DNA of 14,514 nucleotides from Pseudomonadota bacterium (GTDB taxonomy: Bacteria; Pseudomonadota; Alphaproteobacteria; Rhizobiales; Xanthobacteraceae): contig JAJYAH010000086.1 in assembly GCA_021779635.1 (NCBI GenBank), forward strand, positions 1 through 14,514, read 5' to 3'. Position 1 is the stretch's first letter; each line of letters starts with the position of its first letter. A model generated the notes under the pieces. The model saw only the letters and a list, made by a program, of their open reading frames with translations. It did not search any database and was not told the origin of the DNA. Positions 3,347-11,625 of the stretch are shown here, piece after piece. A program made the position numbers and the translations under genes.

Positions 3347-3603
3347 CGGAATACCCAAACAATCGTGGCAGGGCTCAGGCGGCTACCCGGCGAAAGCTGC
3401 TCTGTCATAGACCGCCGTGGCGCGTATCGAACGTGATCGATGTCACCCAAGGAGCGTGGTGCAATGCGAAAAAGCTCGGGGATGGCGATCGGGTGCGGCG
3501 GTTGATTCAATTCGCCTCAAATCAGCACGACCGATAACCTTCAAAAGTTAGGTTAAAAATCGAGCGAGATTGCACGCTAAGCCAGAGGTTGTATGGCTGG
3601 TGC

Positions 3604-3789
3604 ATGTCCTGGTCATTTCATAACGCCGACAAGCGCACCCACCGGAAGATCATGCTGGTGGGTCTGCTGTTCTGCGCCCTGTTTGTCGCCGTCAGCTTCT
3701 TTGCCAGGGAGCAGCCGGACAGCCATTACGTTCTCCAGAAGGCCGACCGGCTGGTTCGCACCGCGGGCGCTCCTCTTCCCGCAAACTGA
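3604..3789 (+). CDS. Small membrane protein, paralogue of the one at 9768-9965
   Basis: A 61-aa protein: a short polar N-terminus (MSWSFHNADKRTHRK), one transmembrane segment (about 16-34), then a polar tail. It aligns without gaps to the 65-aa protein at 9768-9965, sharing M1, S4, A8, D9, T12, H13, K15, I16, V19, L21, S31, R35, D39 and Y42. That alignment fixes the start at the ATG at 3604 rather than an in-frame TTG at 3589; the Shine-Dalgarno is poor (GAGG is about 15 bases away). The N-in or N-out topology and function are unknown. No EcfG-type promoter is visible upstream, unlike its paralogue. Confidence 0.7.
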   Translation: MSWSFHNADKRTHRKIMLVGLLFCALFVAVSFFAREQPDSHYVLQKADRLVRTAGAPLPAN

Positions 3790-3863
3790 TCAGTTTCGGC
3801 GACATCCGGAAGCAGGACGATGGAACTCTGCGCCGGCATCGCGGTTGTCTTGATGAGACTTTC

Positions 3864-3869
3864 AGGAGG
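3864..3869 (+). promoter_or_regulatory. Shine-Dalgarno deciding a 43-aa gene
   Basis: A perfect AGGAGG five bases before the ATG at 3875. It selects this short frame over the longer 82-codon frame starting at 3820 in another phase. Confidence 0.7.
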
Positions 3870-3874
3870 CAACG

Positions 3875-4006
3875 ATGACTACGTGGCACGATACCATGGT
3901 GGACAGGCCCGAAAGCGATCACGAAGCCGGCTATGCGGCCGGCTGGACCATCTCCGGGCTCGCCATGCTGGGCGCAATCGTCACCGTCTGGGTGTTTGCG
4001 ATCTAA
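3875..4006 (+). CDS. 43-aa small membrane protein
   Basis: The product begins MTTWHDTMVDRPESDHEAGY and ends in a hydrophobic segment (about residues 21-43, GWTISGLAMLGAIVTVWVFA) that reaches the C-terminus, typical of a tail-anchored or single-pass small protein. A perfect AGGAGG sits five bases before the ATG, and the stop is TAA. It lies 85 bases after the 61-aa membrane protein gene on the same strand, so the two may be cotranscribed. Function is unknown. It is below the usual length cut-off of gene finders. Confidence 0.65.
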   Translation: MTTWHDTMVDRPESDHEAGYAAGWTISGLAMLGAIVTVWVFAI

Positions 4007-4090
4007 CGCCCCCAGTGCGCGCCATTCTAAAGCGCTTCGAGCCGGCGTCTCGCCGCAAGAACGCGTGACGGCGCGCAGGCTGGATAAGTT

Positions 4091-4486
4091 TCACACCCCG
4101 CCCGGCTGAACGTAGCAGAACACGTAACCGGCGCGGCTCAAGAATACGATTCCGTGACCCGTGGGATTGCTCTTGTCCCATTTCAATTTGTTGTTCGGAA
4201 TTTCGATTTCGGTTCCGATATCGATATGTGGACGCATACGGGGTTCATCCGGACGGTCATCGGTGATCGTCGCGTAGGTTTTTCCATCCCTGACATGAAC
4301 CTCGTCCGCCCAATAGGCATCAGCCTCACCGCAACACGACGCGTTTGGCATGTCGGGCTGCATCAGCGCCTGATACCATTCGCGGATGGCCGGGTCGTTG
4401 TTAATGGCGCCCCACTGGCCAAGGTCGCGGGCATTTGCAACGCCAATCACGCAACCGAACGCAAGACCAAGGACAATGCGCTTCAT
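4091..4486 (-). CDS. Secreted protein of unknown function with a CC pair
   Basis: A 131-aa protein starts at the ATG at 4486, with AGGAG about seven bases upstream. It has a clear Sec signal peptide (MKRIVLGLAFGCVIGVANA, cleavage near residue 19), so it is likely periplasmic. The mature part has an N-terminal helix-like stretch (NDPAIREWYQALMQPD) followed by SCCGEADAYW (Cys51-Cys52). The rest is beta-rich and polar, with a third Cys near the end (VFCYVQ, about residue 124). The Cys residues could pair or bind a ligand. I recognise it only as a hypothetical-protein type common in Bradyrhizobium relatives. It is divergent from the caspase remnant, with 182 bases between starts. Confidence 0.85.
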   Translation of the reverse strand: MKRIVLGLAFGCVIGVANARDLGQWGAINNDPAIREWYQALMQPDMPNASCCGEADAYWADEVHVRDGKTYATITDDRPDEPRMRPHIDIGTEIEIPNNKLKWDKSNPTGHGIVFLSRAGYVFCYVQPGGV

Positions 4487-4668
4487 TTCGCACTCCTGCG
4501 TTTGCCGGCCAATCCATCGAAGCAATCTTCGTGCCGGAATCGGGCCGGTTCCCAAAACCCAATAAGCTCCAGCGGTTAGCCCTTTTTGCGGCCTCGAACC
4601 CGTGGCCCGTCAAGCGAGACCAACAGGCAGCGGTAATTGCCCCGCGGCGCGGGGCGCGGAGCTTCGTC

Positions 4669-5187
4669 ATGACAGGTCGGAACGGCATCATGTCGCGATT
4701 GATTTTCGCGGCCGTTTTGTTGTGCGTCGGCATGTCTGATATCCTCGACCGGCTGGAAAAATCCGGTACCCGGATCAACCTGGTATTGCTCGACGCCTGC
4801 CGCGACAATCCGTTCAGCGGCCAGGGCGCGCATTCGACGAGCGGCGGTCGCGCACAAATGCCCGCACCGGTCGGGACGTTGATTTCATTTGCGACCCAGC
4901 CGCGCAGCGTCTCGCTGGACGGCATTGACGGCCACAGCCCCTACACCAGAGCGCTGGTCGATGCGATGCAGCGGCCCGGCTCCGGGCTGTTCAAGACCTT
5001 CAACGAAGTCGGGCTGGCGGTGGCGAAAGCGACCCAGGGCCAGCAGATACCATGGGTGTCGTCGTCGCCGATCTCGGGCAATTTCAATTTCGCCGGCAAG
5101 CCCGGTTCAGGCGGGCATCGCGCCGATTCCAGGCAAGATGATTTTGACTTTTCCCACGCTGAAACCATTCGGCCCGGTGGCGCGTAA
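4669..5187 (+). pseudogene. Caspase-like (peptidase C14) remnant lacking the His half
   Basis: The 172-codon frame starts at an ATG with GGAG seven bases upstream. Residues about 8-21 (MSRLIFAAVLLCVG) form a signal peptide, which runs directly into a caspase-fold C-terminal part. INLVLLDACRDNPF carries the usual nucleophile (Cys44). GTLISFATQP and SPYTRAL, then GLFKTFNEVGLAV and PWVSSSPISGNF, follow as in secreted bacterial caspase-family proteins. The N-terminal half with the Gly-His catalytic motif and the first strands is absent. This fits an in-frame internal deletion joining the signal peptide to the Cys half. It can hardly be an active peptidase. The frame is intact, so a short secreted product may still be made. 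Confidence 0.65.
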
Positions 5188-5214
5188 ACAGCAGTAGGCC
5201 AACGGAGCATCGTC

Positions 5215-5622
5215 ATGCGCGCCTTTATCCTGCTGGTCGCTCTCCTGATCGGCCTCGCCGCACCGGCCCGGGCTGGCGACGATATTGCCGCCGCGCAGAG
5301 CGTCATCCGCGCCCAGGTTGACGCATTCGACCGCGACGATGCCGCAACGGCCTATTCCTATGCGGCTCCCGCGATCCAGAGCATGTTCCCGCAAGCGAAT
5401 ATCTTTCTCGGCATGGTCAAGCAAAGGTACACCCCGGTCTATCGTCACAAGAGTTTCGAATTCGGCGACGCGCAGGTGTCGGGCGGCAAGATCGCCCAGC
5501 GCGTTCACATCGTCGACGCCGATGGCGAGGCGTGGGAGGCGCTGTACACGCTGGAGCAGCAACCCGACGGCAGCGTGAAGATCACCGGCTGTGTTCTGCT
5601 CAAGGCCGGCCAGGCGGTGTGA
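5215..5622 (+). CDS. Secreted DUF4864 family protein
   Basis: A 135-aa protein with a signal peptide (MRAFILLVALLIGLAAPARA, cleavage after residue 20) and a mature domain that matches the DUF4864 pattern as I know it. AQSVIRAQVDAFDRDDAATAYSYAAPAIQSMF (about 26-57) is followed by a beta-rich half ending in VKITGCVLLKAG. The fold resembles small cone-shaped NTF2-like domains, which is inference. GGAG lies seven bases before the ATG. It starts 27 bases after the caspase remnant on the same strand, so they may share a transcript. The periplasmic role is unknown. It is convergent with the MFS gene, with 33 bases between stops and no clear terminator. Confidence 0.88.
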   Translation: MRAFILLVALLIGLAAPARAGDDIAAAQSVIRAQVDAFDRDDAATAYSYAAPAIQSMFPQANIFLGMVKQRYTPVYRHKSFEFGDAQVSGGKIAQRVHIVDADGEAWEALYTLEQQPDGSVKITGCVLLKAGQAV

Positions 5623-5655
5623 AGCGTTACGCCGCCATCGAATTTTGTGCGTATT

Positions 5656-6954
5656 CTAGTCGCCAAACCGGTAGCCACTTTGGCCGAATACGCGCGACCG
5701 CGCCCGGATCAGCAGCGCCAGCACGATCGAGACGTTGATCGCATTCCACACCAGCCCGTTCAGGAATGCCGCGGCGTAGGAACCGGTGGCGTCGAAGATC
5801 ACGCCGGACACCCAGCCGCCGAACGACATGCCGAAGACGGAGGCCAGAATCACGATGCCGACGCGAGTGGCCGCTTCGCTGGCAGGCATCGATTCGCGGA
5901 CGATAATGGCGTAGCTCGGGACGATGCCGCCCTGAAACAGCCCGAACATCGCGGAGATGACGTAGAGCGAGGAGAGACTGTCGAAAAACAGATAGAACAC
6001 CAGCGCAGAACCCTGCGCCACCGATCCGATCAGCAGCGTGCGGATGCCGCCGATCCTGTCCGCCAGGAATCCCGAACCGATCCGGCTGATGATCCCGAAT
6101 GCCAGCATCAATGACAGCATTTCAGAGCCGCGCGCCAGGCCGTAGCCGAGATCGCCGCAATAGGCGACGATATGGACCTGCGGCATCGCCATCGCGACGC
6201 AGCAGCAAATGCTGGCGACGCACAGCATCGCTGTCAGCGTATTGATCGGCAGCCGGAGATCGATCCGCGGCGGCGGCGCATCGACATGGCTTCGCCGCGT
6301 CGCCCCGCCGATCCGGGCGCGAAGCAGCAGCAACACCGCCGCCATCGTAACGCCGCAGAAGATACCCACGGCGATATAGCTCAAGCGCCAGCCGGAGTTC
6401 TGAATCCCCCAATTGAGCACCGGTGGCCAGATCGCGCCGCCGACATAATTGCCGCTGGCAGCAATGGTCACCGCGAGGCCACGATAGCGGTCGAACCAGT
6501 GCGAGGCCTCCGCCATCAGCGGGGCGAACGTGGCCGAAGTCCCGAGGCCGATCAGAAAATGAATCAGGATGAATTGCCACAACGTGGTCGAAAGCCCGGC
6601 GCCGACATAGGCCAACCCGAGGACCACGGTGCTGAGCCCCATCGCCATGATGATTCCGAAGCGATCGGTGATCTTGCCGGCCGCGACGCTGCCGAGGCCG
6701 AAGCCGAGCATGGTGAGGGTGAAGGCCAGCGATACATCGCCGCGCGTCGCCCCGAATTCGGTCTGGACCACCGGAAGCACGACCACCACCGACCACATGC
6801 CGACGCTGCCGATCGAGCCAATCACCAGCGCGAGCGCGAGCCTGACCCACGCCTGACCAGAGTCCGGGGTGAACAGCGGCGAATCTGTCGATGAATCGGA
6901 GGGAGCCAGCACGGCCGCAACTTCGTCGCCGGCGGCTCCCGGGTCAAGCAACAT
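5656..6954 (-). CDS. Major facilitator superfamily transporter
   Basis: A 432-aa inner-membrane secondary transporter with about 12 hydrophobic segments. The MFS motif A is seen between segments 2 and 3 as GKITDRFG (about 93-100), and a second copy, GFLADRIGG, lies in the C-terminal half. The sequence style (ASHWFDRYRGLAVTIAASGNYVGGAIWPP; GDLGYGLARGSEMLSLMLAFG) resembles the oxalate/formate and monocarboxylate antiporter branch. The substrate cannot be read from the sequence. The start at 6954 is chosen because residues before it are not transporter-like. No good Shine-Dalgarno is seen, and the open frame extends 42 codons further upstream to 7080. Confidence 0.9.
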   Translation of the reverse strand: MLLDPGAAGDEVAAVLAPSDSSTDSPLFTPDSGQAWVRLALALVIGSIGSVGMWSVVVVLPVVQTEFGATRGDVSLAFTLTMLGFGLGSVAAGKITDRFGIIMAMGLSTVVLGLAYVGAGLSTTLWQFILIHFLIGLGTSATFAPLMAEASHWFDRYRGLAVTIAASGNYVGGAIWPPVLNWGIQNSGWRLSYIAVGIFCGVTMAAVLLLLRARIGGATRRSHVDAPPPRIDLRLPINTLTAMLCVASICCCVAMAMPQVHIVAYCGDLGYGLARGSEMLSLMLAFGIISRIGSGFLADRIGGIRTLLIGSVAQGSALVFYLFFDSLSSLYVISAMFGLFQGGIVPSYAIIVRESMPASEAATRVGIVILASVFGMSFGGWVSGVIFDATGSYAAAFLNGLVWNAINVSIVLALLIRARSRVFGQSGYRFGD

Positions 6955-7099
6955 GGCGCGATATTGGGCATGCAGATGCAGTGCAACAGAACGAATTGTG
7001 CCGTGTTTCTCGTCATTCCGGAGCGATGCACCATATCGAACCCGCAAATCCCGCAGGGTTCCCGATGTGCAGGGGCACATCTGAGGCGCGGAAGGCCCG

Positions 7100-7116
7100 T
7101 TAACCCTTTCCTAACC
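7100..7116 (+). promoter_or_regulatory. CtrA-type binding site upstream of flhA
   Basis: TTAACCCTTTCCTAACC is a direct repeat of TTAACC and CTAACC with five bases between, that is TTAA-N7-CTAA, one mismatch from the CtrA consensus TTAA-N7-TTAA. It is 169-185 bases before the chosen flhA ATG and also lies in the divergent region of the MFS gene. CtrA control of flagellar genes is established in Caulobacter; here it is inferred. Confidence 0.55.
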
Positions 7117-7123
7117 ATAAACC

Positions 7124-7138
7124 GGGCAAAAATTGCCC
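7124..7138. other. Hairpin in the flhA leader
   Basis: GGGCAA, AAA, TTGCCC form a perfect 6-bp stem with a 3-base loop, just after the CtrA-type site. There is no T-run, so it is not a standard terminator. It may be an operator or a leader structure. Confidence 0.3.
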
Positions 7139-7284
7139 AGTGAAGTCGAGTGTCGTCGGTCGCGTAGAACGGGGGAGTGCCCGTGGACGCCAGTGCGGTG
7201 CCTCACTTTCGAAACGGTGGCCCCTCGGCCGCCGCGCAGACGTTTGGCGCCCGCGGCCGGCATGCGCGGGGGGAAGCAGCAACC

Positions 7285-9414
7285 ATGGTCGATGTCACGG
7301 CAGGTCTGGGCTCAGCACCGGGGACCGGACTTCCCAGTTTCAGCGACATCGGCAAAATCCTGCGGCGCGGCGATATCGCGCTGGCGTTCGGCATCCTCAC
7401 CATCCTGGTCGTGCTGATCCTCCCGCTGCCCTCGATCGTTCTTGATCTTTTTCTGGCGATCTCGATCACGCTGTCGATCCTGATCCTGATGACGTCGCTG
7501 TTCATCCAGGCCCCGCTGGAATTCTCGTCGTTCCCGACCATCCTGCTGATCTCGACGATGCTGCGGCTATCGCTCAACCTTGCTTCGACGCGGCTGATCC
7601 TGTCGCGCGGCCATGAAGGCTCCGATGCCGCCGGCCACGTCATCGAGGCGTTCGGCAATTTCGTGATGGGCGGCAATTTCGTCATCGGAATTATCGTTTT
7701 CGCGATCCTGGTGATCGTGAATTTCGTCGTCATCACCAAGGGCTCCGGCCGCATCGCCGAAGTCGCGGCGCGCTTCCACCTCGACGCCATGCCGGGCAAA
7801 CAGATGGCGATCGACGCCGATCTTTCCGCCGGGCTGATCGACGAGAAAGTCGCCAAGGAGCGCCGCAAGGCGCTGGAAGACGAAAGCGGCTTCTTCGGCG
7901 CGATGGACGGTGCCTCGAAATTCGTGCGCGGCGACGCGGTCGCCGGCCTGCTCGTGGTCTTCATCAACATCATCGGCGGAATCATCATCGGCGTGGCCCA
8001 GCAGGGCCTCAGCTTCGGCGAAGCCGCCCATAGCTACACGCTGCTGACCGTCGGCGACGGTCTGGTCACCCAGGTGCCTGCGTTGATCGTCTCCACTGCC
8101 GCAGGCTTGCTGGTCTCGAAAGCGGGCGTCAGCGGTGCGGCCGACAAGGCGCTGATGAAACAGCTCTCCGGCTATCCGCAGGCACTCGGCATGTCGGCCG
8201 GCGTGATGCTGGTGCTGGCGCTGCTGCCGGGTATTCCGATGATTCCGTTCCTGCTGCTGGGCGGCGGCGCCGCTGCTCTGGCATGGTCGGCCCGCAAGCG
8301 CAATCGCGCCACCAAGGCCGCCGAAGCCGCCGCGGCGGCGGCACCGGCGGCGGCCGCCGCGGCAAGCGCGGCGGCGGAAGAGCCGATTGCGATGGCGCTG
8401 AAGATCGACGACCTCAAGATCGAACTTGGTTATGCGCTGCTGCCGCTGGTGAACGGCCCCGACGGCACCGACCGCCTCACCGAGCAGATCAAGGCGTTGC
8501 GCCGTTCGCTCGCGGTCGAGATGGGCTTTGTGATGCCGGCGGTGCGCATTCTCGACAATGTGCAGCTGGAAGCCAACACCTACATCATCAAGATCAAGGA
8601 GGTCGATGCCGGCACCGGGCGGATCTGGCCGAACCAGTTCATGGTGATGGACCCCGCCGGAAATCAGGTCGGCGTGCCTGGCATTCACACCATCGAGCCG
8701 ACGTTCGGGCTGCCGGCGACCTGGGTCGACGCCAGCTTGAAGGAGGAAGCGTCGCTGAAGGGTTATACGGTGGTCGATGCGGCGACCGTGCTGTCGACCC
8801 ATCTCACCGAGCTTCTCAAGAACAACATGTCGGACCTGTTGTCCTATGGCGAGGTGCAGAAACTGCTGAAGGACCTGCCGAAGGAACAGGGCGAACTGCT
8901 CAAGGATATCGTGCCGAGCCTGGTCACCATTTCGGGCATTCAGCGCGTGCTGCAGCTGCTGCTCGCCGAGCGGATCTCGATCCGCGACCTGTCGACTATT
9001 CTCGAAGGCATCGCCGACGCGCTGGCGTTTTCGCGCAATCCGGCGACGATGGTCGAACATGTTCGTGCCCGGCTGGCCCGGCAGATTTGCGCGCAAAACA
9101 CCACCGGCAACGGCTATCTGCCGCTGATCGCCTTGTCGGCAAAGTGGGAGCAGGCGTTCGCCGAATCGCTGGTCGGCCAGGGCGAGGAGCGCAGCCTTGC
9201 GATGCAGCCTTCCAAACTGTCCGAGTTCATGACCGTGGTCCGGGAACGGTTCGAGCAGGCCGCGCGCGAGGGCGAAGCGCCGGTGCTGGTTACCTCGGCG
9301 GCGATCCGGCCATTCGTGCGCTCGCTGGTGGAGCGTTTCAGGTCGCAAACGACCATTCTGTCGCAGGCGGAAATCCATCCGCGGGCACGGCTGAAGACGG
9401 TTGGAAGCGTGTAG
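7285..9414 (+). CDS. flhA: Flagellar export gate protein FlhA
   Basis: A 709-aa inner-membrane core component of the flagellar type III export apparatus. Its cytoplasmic ring docks chaperone-substrate complexes and couples proton flow to export. The N-terminal half has about eight transmembrane segments beginning near residue 31, with the family signature around TMLRLSLNLASTRLIL (about 94-109) and the conserved cytoplasmic loop GSGRIAEVAARFHLDAMPGKQMAIDADL. An unusual Ala-run linker (about 344-367) leads to the C-terminal domain (FlhA_C) with RIWPNQFMVMDP, YGEVQKLLKDLPKEQ and FSRNPATMVEHVRARLARQI. The start at 7285 has a G-rich stretch upstream and fits known FlhA N-termini; an in-frame GTG at 7177 would add 36 low-complexity residues. 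A CtrA-type site lies upstream. It stands apart from the other flagellar genes. Confidence 0.96.
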   Translation: MVDVTAGLGSAPGTGLPSFSDIGKILRRGDIALAFGILTILVVLILPLPSIVLDLFLAISITLSILILMTSLFIQAPLEFSSFPTILLISTMLRLSLNLASTRLILSRGHEGSDAAGHVIEAFGNFVMGGNFVIGIIVFAILVIVNFVVITKGSGRIAEVAARFHLDAMPGKQMAIDADLSAGLIDEKVAKERRKALEDESGFFGAMDGASKFVRGDAVAGLLVVFINIIGGIIIGVAQQGLSFGEAAHSYTLLTVGDGLVTQVPALIVSTAAGLLVSKAGVSGAADKALMKQLSGYPQALGMSAGVMLVLALLPGIPMIPFLLLGGGAAALAWSARKRNRATKAAEAAAAAAPAAAAAASAAAEEPIAMALKIDDLKIELGYALLPLVNGPDGTDRLTEQIKALRRSLAVEMGFVMPAVRILDNVQLEANTYIIKIKEVDAGTGRIWPNQFMVMDPAGNQVGVPGIHTIEPTFGLPATWVDASLKEEASLKGYTVVDAATVLSTHLTELLKNNMSDLLSYGEVQKLLKDLPKEQGELLKDIVPSLVTISGIQRVLQLLLAERISIRDLSTILEGIADALAFSRNPATMVEHVRARLARQICAQNTTGNGYLPLIALSAKWEQAFAESLVGQGEERSLAMQPSKLSEFMTVVRERFEQAAREGEAPVLVTSAAIRPFVRSLVERFRSQTTILSQAEIHPRARLKTVGSV

Positions 9415-9439
9415 AGCCCCGCGGCCGGGGCCGGCCTCC

Positions 9440-9529
9440 TGCCGCAAATCATTTCCGCCAATCGGTTGGCGAAGCAGGGCTTTTCGGCCACAGGCAAATG
9501 ATTTTATTGGATCGATGTGATTTGCGGCA
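9440..9529. repeat. 12-bp inverted repeat enclosing a stem-loop
   Basis: TGCCGCAAATCA (9440-9451) and its exact reverse complement TGATTTGCGGCA (9518-9529) enclose 66 bases. Inside is a second perfect hairpin, CGCCAA-TCGG-TTGGCG (9456-9471), and a near copy of the left arm core, GCAAATGATTT (9494-9504). Folded, this gives a closed stem with one or two inner arms. There is no terminal T-run. It could be a structured 3' UTR, part of a small RNA or a protein-binding element. Confidence 0.45.
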
Positions 9530-9659
9530 TGTTGCGGCGCGAAATGCTTGATTCCCATAACCTGCTGTAATGACTAAGTTATGCTCCGAATCGATGGCCA
9601 AATGCCGGGCTGTGCTCGCGGTCGTTCAAGTCTTTTCACTGCCTTGTGATCGCATCTTA

Positions 9660-9685
9660 GGAACCAAAGGCCGAATCCCCACGTT
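9660..9685 (+). promoter_or_regulatory. EcfG-type general stress promoter
   Basis: GGAAC (9660-9664), 17 bases, then CGTT (9682-9685, followed by another T) matches the alphaproteobacterial EcfG consensus GGAAC-N16/17-CGTT exactly. The expected transcript would start near 9692 and give a leader of about 75 bases before the ATG at 9768. Confidence 0.65.
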
Positions 9686-9767
9686 TGCCCCGACGTGATG
9701 TTGAACCTGCCTGCGAACGGACGAGACAAATCCAAAAAGGCAGTAGCAGGACGGCAGGAGGCTACCC

Positions 9768-9965
9768 ATGAACCATTCGATCTATAGCGCAGATCGCACG
9801 ACCCATCTGAAGATTGTGGTCGTCGCCCTCGTTGCAGCTATCGCGGTGGCGGGCTTCAGCATCTCGGTTCGCAGCAATTCGGACGACAGCTACCAGACCG
9901 CGCGCGTCGTCAAGGCCGGCAAGGCCGTGACAGTCACGAGCTCAAACACGTCGATGGTCCGCTAA
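9768..9965 (+). CDS. Small membrane protein with a stress promoter
   Basis: A 65-aa protein: N-terminus MNHSIYSADRTTHLK, one transmembrane segment (about 16-34), then a Ser/Thr/Val-rich tail (residues 35-65). AGGAGG lies eight bases before the ATG. It aligns without gaps over its first 42 residues to the product at 3604-3789, with 14 identities including A8-D9, T12-H13 and K15-I16, so the polar N-terminal motif S-x-x-x-A-D-x-x-T-H-x-K-I looks like the functional signature. An EcfG-type promoter lies upstream and a strong terminator downstream, making a complete single-gene unit. A role in the general stress response is inferred; the molecular function is unknown. Confidence 0.85.
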   Translation: MNHSIYSADRTTHLKIVVVALVAAIAVAGFSISVRSNSDDSYQTARVVKAGKAVTVTSSNTSMVR

Positions 9966-10051: not shown

Positions 10052-10058
10052 TTCTTCG

Positions 10059-10092
10059 GAAAACGCCCGCTCCCCACGGGCGTTTTCTTTTT
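10059..10092 (+). terminator. Strong Rho-independent terminator
   Basis: GAAAACGCCCG, a 7-base loop, and CGGGCGTTTTC form a perfect 11-bp stem, followed by five more T. It ends the small membrane protein unit. The A-run at the left edge of the stem means it can also act on leftward transcripts coming from the sigma/anti-sigma pair. Confidence 0.9.
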
Positions 10093-10189: not shown

Positions 10190-11080
10190 TCAGTGGGCGG
10201 GCGACGGCGCGGCAGCGGGCGGCGGCACAGTCTCGATCAGCTTGCCGGCATAAACCGGCGCTGACGTCGGCTTGCCGTCAGGCGAGCCGCCCGCCTGCTC
10301 GACCGTCACCGCATAGGTCGCCGCGTTGATCGTGTCGGCATCGTACGCGGACAGCACCGGACGCGCGGTGAAGTCGGCGCTGCCGATCACGCCCAGCGAG
10401 CGCGGCCGTTGCAGCTTGTCGGAAATCAGCCAGAGCTCAAAGCTTTTGCCGGGCTCGGCAGCGGCACCGACCTTGCGAACCGTGAAGTTCTTGGTCGCGC
10501 CGTCAACCGTGAGGATGAAGGCCGGCGAGCCACCCTCCTTCTGCAAGACGGCGACATACTGGGCCGCCGGCACGGGGGCAGCCGGAATCCTGACCTCAAC
10601 CACCTGCGTACGCGGCTTCGGACGAATGCTCTCCGGCAATAGATCCGGCCGATCGGCCTGAACCCCGATCATGGCGACCAGTGCGGCAGCGATCGCCGTC
10701 GTCAGTGTGGCGATGTTGCGCCAGCGCCGCACCTTCGCGGACAACGCGATGACGGTGGAATTATCCACCGCCGCGGCAGGTTGGCTGATTTCCGGAGCGA
10801 CCGGCGGCGGCGGCGCCGCCGCCTGCGGAAGCACCAGCGGCTCCTGCGGCGCGGAAAGTCCCGCCGCGGTTCGGATCTTGTCCCAGACCTCGGGACGCGG
10901 CTCGATGGACCCGACCATCTGGTTCAGCACACCGAGCTTTTGCTCCCATGCCTGGACCATCGCCGTGAAGCCCTTGTCGACGGACATCATGGTCTCGACC
11001 TGCGCGCGCTCGTCGGCATCGAGTGTGCCGAGGGCATATTCCGCAGCGAGCACGATATGGTCTTCGCTATAGGCCATCAT
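10190..11080 (-). CDS. Anti-sigma factor, RskA type
   Basis: A 296-aa single-pass membrane protein that is expected to hold the neighbouring ECF sigma factor inactive. The N-terminal cytoplasmic sigma-binding part (about 1-75) begins DHIVLAAEYALGTLDADERAQ and has no Cys, so it is not a zinc-binding ZAS with CxxC. A Pro/Ala-rich linker leads to a transmembrane segment at about 122-141, and a periplasmic RskA-like domain follows (about 170-285, with FELWLISDKLQRPRSLGVIG). The start ATG overlaps the sigma stop in ATGA; a second ATG follows directly. The signal sensed is unknown. The open frame upstream of 11080 lies opposite no family match and overlaps the sigma gene. Confidence 0.9.
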   Translation of the reverse strand: MMAYSEDHIVLAAEYALGTLDADERAQVETMMSVDKGFTAMVQAWEQKLGVLNQMVGSIEPRPEVWDKIRTAAGLSAPQEPLVLPQAAAPPPPVAPEISQPAAAVDNSTVIALSAKVRRWRNIATLTTAIAAALVAMIGVQADRPDLLPESIRPKPRTQVVEVRIPAAPVPAAQYVAVLQKEGGSPAFILTVDGATKNFTVRKVGAAAEPGKSFELWLISDKLQRPRSLGVIGSADFTARPVLSAYDADTINAATYAVTVEQAGGSPDGKPTSAPVYAGKLIETVPPPAAAPSPAH

Positions 11081-11625
11081 TCCAGTCCAAGGCACTCCCG
11101 GATGTCCATCATGCTGCGACGCAGCCAGGTTTTTACGGTATTCACCGGCGCCGCGAACTTGGCCGCCAACTGCTCGCGGCTCCAGCCATTGTAATAGGCC
11201 AGCAACACGAGCTTTTGCCGATCCGGCTCCAGGCGCCCAACGCACTCCAGCAACCGCTTCAACTCTTCCGTCATCTCCCGGCGCGCCAGCGGATCCGGCG
11301 TGTCGGCAGCCACTTCCATGGCCGCCGGCTCCTCTTCGATCGAGGCCTCCGTCCGTTTGCGCACGATGTCGATGGCACGATTGCGGGCAATCGAAGCCAT
11401 CCACGTGATCGGCGACGACAGCCCGGGATTGAACTGTCCGGCACTGTTCCAGATCTTGACATACGCCTCTTGAATGACCTCCTCCGCGAGATCCTGTCGC
11501 CGCAAGATACGCAGCACCACACCGAAGAGTTTCGCCCGCGTAGCGGCATAAAGGCGCTCAAACGCGGCCTCATCCCCCTTCGCTACAGCGGCAATCAGCC
11601 AGACGAGCTCAGCTGGCGTCAGCAT
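11077..11625 (-). CDS. ECF sigma-70 family factor, SigK-like
   Basis: A 182-aa extracytoplasmic-function sigma factor, the usual length. Region 2 spans about 20-92, with the core-binding and -10 reading part AEEVIQEAYVKIWNSAGQF and ITWMASIARNRAIDIVRKR. Region 4 spans about 121-176, with a helix-turn-helix SREQLAAKFAAPVNTVKTWLRRSM for the -35 element. GGGGA lies upstream of the ATG. The stop overlaps the anti-sigma start by four bases, so the two are translationally coupled. Its partner is of the RskA type, which fits a SigK-like ECF group. I could not see a clear autoregulatory promoter in the 127 bases before it. Confidence 0.93.
   Translation of the reverse strand: MLTPAELVWLIAAVAKGDEAAFERLYAATRAKLFGVVLRILRRQDLAEEVIQEAYVKIWNSAGQFNPGLSSPITWMASIARNRAIDIVRKRTEASIEEEPAAMEVAADTPDPLARREMTEELKRLLECVGRLEPDRQKLVLLAYYNGWSREQLAAKFAAPVNTVKTWLRRSMMDIRECLGLE

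Follow-up and report, generated by a model that had tools for sequence, protein, structure and literature searches.

Small membrane proteins are easily overlooked in annotation. The stretch of DNA analysed here (the window, 14,514 nucleotides of contig JAJYAH010000086.1 from a Bradyrhizobium-like bacterium of the Xanthobacteraceae) raises the question whether two of them, encoded 6 kb apart, belong to one family and, if so, how its members are controlled and what they might do. The first-pass annotation, made from the letters of the window, had described two open reading frames for such proteins. Both were found at the coordinates and with the lengths and motifs claimed, and they are referred to below as P0001 and P0002:

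3604..3789, + strand: P0001, type III family member, single-pass membrane protein of 61 aa (open reading frame and homologue search)
9768..9965, + strand: P0002, type I family member, single-pass membrane protein of 65 aa (open reading frame and homologue search)

The best hydrophobic stretch of P0002 and the membrane stretch of P0001 both span residues 16-34, with mean Kyte-Doolittle values of 2.75 and 2.74, respectively. AlphaFold2 modelled P0002 as a helix at 3-36 and P0001 as helices at 3-36 and 40-54, with low confidence outside the helix in both. Neither protein matched Pfam above cut-off (best MHYT, 15.1 of 21 bits, and Wzz, 14.7 of 25.5), and at the NCBIfam cut-off level P0001 had no match at all and P0002 two, both below. 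Among titles and abstract openings of the openly licensed PMC literature none was found on this small-protein family, nor was a partner, phenotype or expression datum found for it.

The gap-free alignment of the two proteins, with 14 identities over 42 residues, was reproduced by BLASTP with an E value of 5e-4 for this single comparison. Comparison of the P0001 and P0002 family alignments with hhalign returned the same 42 columns at a probability of 93.8 and an E value of 1.7e-7. When P0001 was shuffled segment by segment (N-terminal, membrane and C-terminal), the maximum was 13 identities and none of 20,000 shuffles reached 14. A resemblance due to chance or to convergence of short hydrophobic proteins is highly improbable. 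The sequences are indeed short and biased in composition, and the local alignment score was equalled in 1 of 5,000 shuffles, but BLASTP, the profile comparison and the identity shuffles already largely contradict such an origin, and a single profile recovers members of every group, MAHSFHNADKATHRKVM among them. At the level of sequence, the likeness is thereby shown to exceed chance and composition, and the two genes to be paralogues of one family.

The motif proposed for the pair held in part. Its N-terminal portion, S-x3-A-D-x2-T-H-x-K-I, is family-wide, but R-x3-D-x2-Y characterises the two window proteins and not the family. In the family profile, built from 21 sequences (one row, from L132, starts too late and a longer start exists), D9 and T12 are invariant, and conservation reaches at least 90% at S4 and A50. 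The first 16 residues look by eye like the best-conserved portion of the proteins, and this conservation suggests that the motif may have a recognition role. The groups also have a C-terminal alanine patch in common, KAG in types I and II and KAD...RTAG in type III, the exact register of which is unsure because the aligner pairs the A of RTAG.

Homologues carrying the N-terminal motif are numerous in relatives: at E<=1, 5079 proteins matched P0002 and 1075 matched P0001, the best 120 of each being examined. In a profile search the family was found in 138 of 198 genomes of the Bradyrhizobium GTDB family, taken as the genomes grouped with that of L018, Bradyrhizobium sp. CCGUVB4N, with 1-5 copies each. 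Copy numbers are lower bounds because at most 30 candidates were scored per genome; on this count, 78 of the family-bearing genomes have one copy, 35 two, 18 three, 6 four and 1 five, that is, at least two copies in 60 of the 138 and at least three in 25. The order sample gave matches in 11 of 297 genomes. Ten of these were already in the family sample, and the eleventh (G234), a weak match within an open frame of 826 aa, is probably spurious. In the class sample, 1 of 289 genomes had the family, namely the query genome.

Regions were fetched for 100 of the 231 profile matches counted. The 213 profile hits reduced to 196 distinct ones: 126 type I, 46 type II/other, 20 type III and four labelled 'I?' (L001, L007, L010 and L070), which are excluded from the 126. 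Type I was defined by flhA on the same strand no more than 3.5 kb upstream, and 75 of its rows came from the 80 loci that a P0002-type search retained of 472. Type III is the P0001 type. Type II/other, mostly with NHS-x-HSADR, is the remainder after types I and III and therefore a mixed class, in which 39 of the 46 rows aligned as type II. In a tree of 98 rows, which took 32 of the 126 type I rows and carried a long-branch warning, type III formed one side of a branch with support 100/98. Types I and II did not come out clean (7 and 8 label changes), there being few columns to resolve them.

Purifying selection was evident in every group. Median pairwise dN/dS was 0.174 for type I (1269 pairs), 0.261 for type II/other (686 pairs) and 0.266 for type III (118 pairs), with pairs restricted to dS 0.1-1.5 and to a maximum of 1500 random pairs per group; the medians thus span 0.17-0.27 and no pair used exceeded 1.

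The surroundings of the type I gene in the window contain the following features:

7177..9414, + strand: flhA, lying upstream of P0002 (Pfam FHIPEP, E 4.5e-257)
10058..10092, + strand: probable intrinsic terminator downstream of P0002 (12-pair stem, then a T run)
10190..11404, - strand: RskA-like anti-sigma gene, convergent neighbour (Pfam RskA_C)
11077..11625, - strand: ECF sigma factor gene, convergent neighbour (Pfam Sigma70_r2 and r4_2)

The linkage of type I to flhA is more than its definition, since 75 of 79 distinct loci collected by protein similarity alone have flhA at most 3.5 kb upstream and in the same orientation. Of the other four, L001 and L070 have flhA at 5.2 kb, and L007 and L010 end too early. 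Farther downstream, where present, follow the convergent ECF sigma/RskA-like pair and then fliJ and fliI. Types III and II/other are located elsewhere. A P0001-type gene was absent from all 80 P0002 loci fetched, 68 of which include 10 kb upstream, and the 6-kb proximity of the two genes in the window is incidental and not conserved.

This position next to the flagellar export gate gene brings up a direct flagellar role, in which the type I protein would modulate the export gate FlhA and damp flagellar assembly in stress. We regard this as unlikely. Besides the linkage just described, it is favoured by the occurrence of the family in 126 of 141 genomes with a primary flhA versus 12 of 57 without, as raw counts that ignore kinship and with primary and secondary FlhA split by E-value. 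The 12 family-bearing genomes (of 138) that lack a primary FlhA match nevertheless speak against it, G037 being apparently single-contig, with assembly gaps possible elsewhere. Moreover, no flhA turned up in the regions fetched around type II/other genes or, outside the window, around those of type III. The type I copy itself looks monocistronic, having its own promoter box (described below), a probable terminator and a convergent gene downstream; the terminator scan found 2 overlapping sites versus 1.2 in shuffles. It is on account of this apparently separate transcription unit, and of the lack of flhA beside the other types outside the window, that a direct flagellar role is the minority view. 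The type I gene shares with flhA, fliJ and fliI of the cluster its position by flhA, but differs from them in its stress-type box, its own probable terminator, its paralogues elsewhere and the lack of a flagellar domain match.

Upstream of the type I gene, these elements were recognised:

9633-9651, + strand: long palindrome form TTTTCAC-N4-TTGTGATC, enclosing TCAC-N6-GTGA (window sequence)
9636..9649, + strand: palindrome TCAC-N6-GTGA, putative regulator site, 10 nt before GGAAC (conserved in type I)
9660..9685, + strand: EcfG-type promoter box GGAAC-N17-CGTT, 108 nt before the ATG (both elements exact)
9702..9730, + strand: conserved TGAACC-N17-GACAAA between box and start codon, a possible second (ECF-type) promoter or binding site (conservation)
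9753..9761, + strand: Shine-Dalgarno GGCAGGAGG before P0002 (its GGAG is conserved across aligned type I regions)

It had been claimed that an EcfG-type box and a strong Shine-Dalgarno precede the second window gene only, and this proved correct. GGAAC (9660-9664) and CGTT are both exact, and no box with up to one mismatch was found within 250 nt upstream of 3604, where by eye there is no strong Shine-Dalgarno either. The first-pass annotation had also proposed counting copies per genome and upstream GGAAC-N16/17-CGTT boxes; several copies were found, as given above, and the box tracks type I. With up to one mismatch at -135 to -80, it precedes 120 of 126 type I genes (58 exact) versus 1.85 (0.10 exact) in shuffles, and the same search gave 0 of 46 for type II/other and 1 of 20 for type III (shuffles 0.25 each). 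After collapsing the proteins to <80% identity the counts were 27/32, 0/25 and 1/10 for types I, II/other and III, respectively. Six type I regions have no box in this interval; in two of them, L255 and L257, an exact one lies farther upstream. Including the four 'I?' entries, 124 promoters are boxed, of which 117 have a spacer of 17 nt; both elements are exact in 60 of the 124, and 40 have the form GGAAC/GGTT.

The box is accompanied by two further elements that are characteristic of type I. TCAC-N6-GTGA lies 9-12 nt before GGAAC in 118 of 120 boxed type I promoters (10 nt in 108, 9 in 7 and 12 in 3; two are without) and was absent from the 250 nt upstream of all 46 type II/other and all 20 type III genes. 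TGAACC is present upstream of 120 of 126 type I genes, 1 of 46 type II/other and none of 20 type III; in the form TGAACC-N17-GAC it precedes 86 of the 126, and any other spacing from 12 to 22 at most 10. What goes beyond the earlier annotation is how widely the family occurs, the linkage of type I to flhA, the group-specific palindromes of types I and III, the 17-nt spacer and the finding that proximity of the window genes is not conserved. A conserved RNA fold in the type I leader was considered and rejected (mean z -0.17 over 56 diverse leaders, with no consensus structure), and Rfam gave no match in the window.

Genome-wide searches in 18 genomes located the long form TTTTCAC-N4-TTGTGATC, with one mismatch allowed, at 13 sites in 11 genomes, 11 of the sites being type I promoters, versus 1 for a reversed-pattern control; no site was found in the remaining 7, where a diverged form prevails. 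The relaxed pattern TCAC-N6-GTGA-N7-13-GGAAC gave 30 sites in 17 of the 18, of which 14 are type I promoters (control 7). A site of this kind recurs before a 74-aa open reading frame in G001, G003, G004 and G034 (L298, at position 1502, and L299-L301, at position 1501, the first two on the - strand); no relation to the type I promoter was apparent. It was rejected as a second composite promoter because there is no CGTT at 16 or 17 nt and its GGAAC lies near the start codon of the 74-aa frame.

Which sigma factor reads the type I box? EcfG may tolerate spacers of 16-17 nt, and the PhyR-EcfG paper for B. japonicum is reportedly Gourion 2009. Judged by its promoter sequence, EcfG control of type I is likely yet unproven, EcfG being the best candidate; the reservation stems from the spacer, which is 17 nt here versus 16 at the nepR boxes of relatives. 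In these nepR upstream regions GGAAC-N16-C(A/G)TT was found in 9 of 18, 160-190 nt before the NepR domain match, and an N17 form in none; 8 of the remaining regions had no box within one mismatch and 1 was dubious. Like type I promoters, those of the EcfG regulon have GGAAC at -35 and CGTT at -10 and lie roughly 100 nt before the start codon. They differ in the spacer, which is N16 in the excerpts of PMC7083833 and PMC3892343, as it is at nepR of relatives. The palindrome fixed 9-12 nt before the -35 element is likewise a type I feature, no mention of it being found for EcfG promoters in the same excerpts. The GGAAC/GGTT variant of the -10 element, seen in about a third of the boxed promoters, would also count against an explanation by EcfG and stress.

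The spacer difference could instead mean that another ECF sigma factor reads the box and that the type I gene lies outside the EcfG regulon. A spacer of 17 in nearly all boxed type I promoters, as opposed to none at nepR, would fit this, as would the second ECF-like element, TGAACC-N17-GAC, that follows the box. Both half-sites are, however, those of the EcfG consensus, and the box persists where the convergent ECF neighbour was not found, as in Nitrobacter (L009, L021) and in G137 (L210). The neighbouring ECF factor was rejected as the reader, the upstream regions of its own gene being without the box (0 exact and 4 one-mismatch of 96; none in the window). Reading by another ECF factor appears to us a rather weak contender.

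That EcfG reads the box could be reconciled with the longer spacer by an activator that binds the palindrome and compensates for the 17 nt, which is a reasonable idea. A stricter variant would make type I a dual-input promoter, its 17-nt ECF box active only with a dedicated regulator on TCAC-N6-GTGA, and, given the different palindrome of type III, the family a set of interchangeable membrane adaptors that serve one partner, each with its own signal. Among the genomes searched, the combination of an ECF box and a fixed palindrome seems to belong to the type I promoter; we would nonetheless give this variant only a modest chance.

The other groups have control elements of their own. For type III the element in the window is:

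3535..3555, + strand: TAACC-N11-GGTTA, a palindrome and putative regulator site before P0001 (20/20 type III)

This palindrome was found in 20 of 20 type III upstream regions, and even a looser form was absent from those of all 126 type I and all 46 type II/other genes. Genome-wide it gave 34 sites in 17 of 18 genomes, of which 15 lie at type III genes (control 4), so that its regulator, if real, may have further targets. A second copy (TAACCTTGACCGGTTAGGTTA or close) recurs at position 3001 in L267, L268, L269, L270, L272 and L273. In four of these (L267, L268, L272 and L273) an open reading frame of 376-386 aa has its 3' end no more than about 130 nt away, a tRNA-Ser lies 0.3-1.4 kb from the copy in the six loci scanned, and no clear target gene for it was seen among the 12 regions fetched. 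Upstream of type II/other genes, GAAAC(C/A)A(T/C)TT was present in 31 of 46. A longer block, GAAACCATTTT-N3-GAACC-N2-CGAAAC, was observed about 60-110 nt before the start codon of type II genes (L121, L124, L183 and others); genome-wide it occurred at 14 sites in 13 of 20 genomes, 13 of them at type II genes, with a control of 0. For none of the type I, II and III elements did the genome-wide site searches, in 18-20 genomes, identify a regulator.

The earlier picture of a small single-pass family with a conserved N-terminal motif and different regulation is thus borne out by the motif-bearing homologues, the purifying selection and the group-specific control regions. Sequence comparison shows that the genes are homologous and under purifying selection, and that they fall into several groups, each with a conserved control region of its own. 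What the proteins do can be proposed more tentatively. As the best explanation, and one that is quite possibly right, we suggest that the paralogues are inner-membrane accessory or regulatory proteins of about 60-70 residues that act on one shared partner under different signals, type I doing so in the general stress response. The N-terminus, S-x3-A-D-[RK]-x-T-H-x-[KR]-[IV], would face the cytoplasm and the short tail the periplasm. As small subunits with an accessory or regulatory task, the proteins would dock on a common partner in the membrane or close to it. Production of type I would form part of the general stress response, possibly jointly with a regulator that binds the palindrome, and through its paralogues that partner could be adjusted when other signals prevail. 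Counting against this explanation are the 17-nt spacer, the failure of the tree to separate types I and II and the low AlphaFold2 confidence outside the helix.

In favour of the proposed orientation, the N-terminal flank of the membrane segment has a higher net charge than the C-terminal flank in 87 of 126 type I proteins (the opposite in 5), in 12 of 20 of type III (the opposite in none) and, as a weak bias, in 20 of 46 of type II/other (the opposite in 8), the rest being ties; in P0002 itself the flank charges are equal. An N-terminal positive charge followed by a hydrophobic stretch would also suit secreted proteins, in which the helix would be a signal peptide and the tail, whose sequence KAGKPVTVTSS recurs in types I and II, an active periplasmic peptide. 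This we consider quite doubtful, as by eye conservation is highest in the N-terminal 16 residues and there is no clear cleavage motif.

Small single-pass regulatory membrane proteins of bacteria include AcrZ, MgtS and CydX. An accessory role as proposed above would place the family beside them, and by description it resembles them in size, in its one transmembrane helix and in having no recognisable enzymatic domain. It differs in being confined, in the samples searched, to one GTDB family and in having several paralogues with group-specific control regions. The type I copy, with its stress-type promoter, adjoins the gene of the flagellar export gate. Should the proposal be true, research on soil and symbiotic bacteria would gain a concrete candidate for an effector of the general stress response, as well as a promoter at which ECF-sigma recognition and a conserved upstream palindrome could be examined together.

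Some further reading frames in the window were noted. Right after the type III gene, a 43-aa frame (3875..4006, + strand) is preceded by a good Shine-Dalgarno, CAGGAGG, and its C-terminal half is hydrophobic; in a single relative, L082, a counterpart with 72% identity likewise follows the type III gene. The frame at 4435-5187, which lies between P0001 and P0002, has a caspase-like peptidase C14 domain (Pfam E 4.6e-15), and the one at 5215-5622 matches DUF4864 (Pfam E 3.8e-33).
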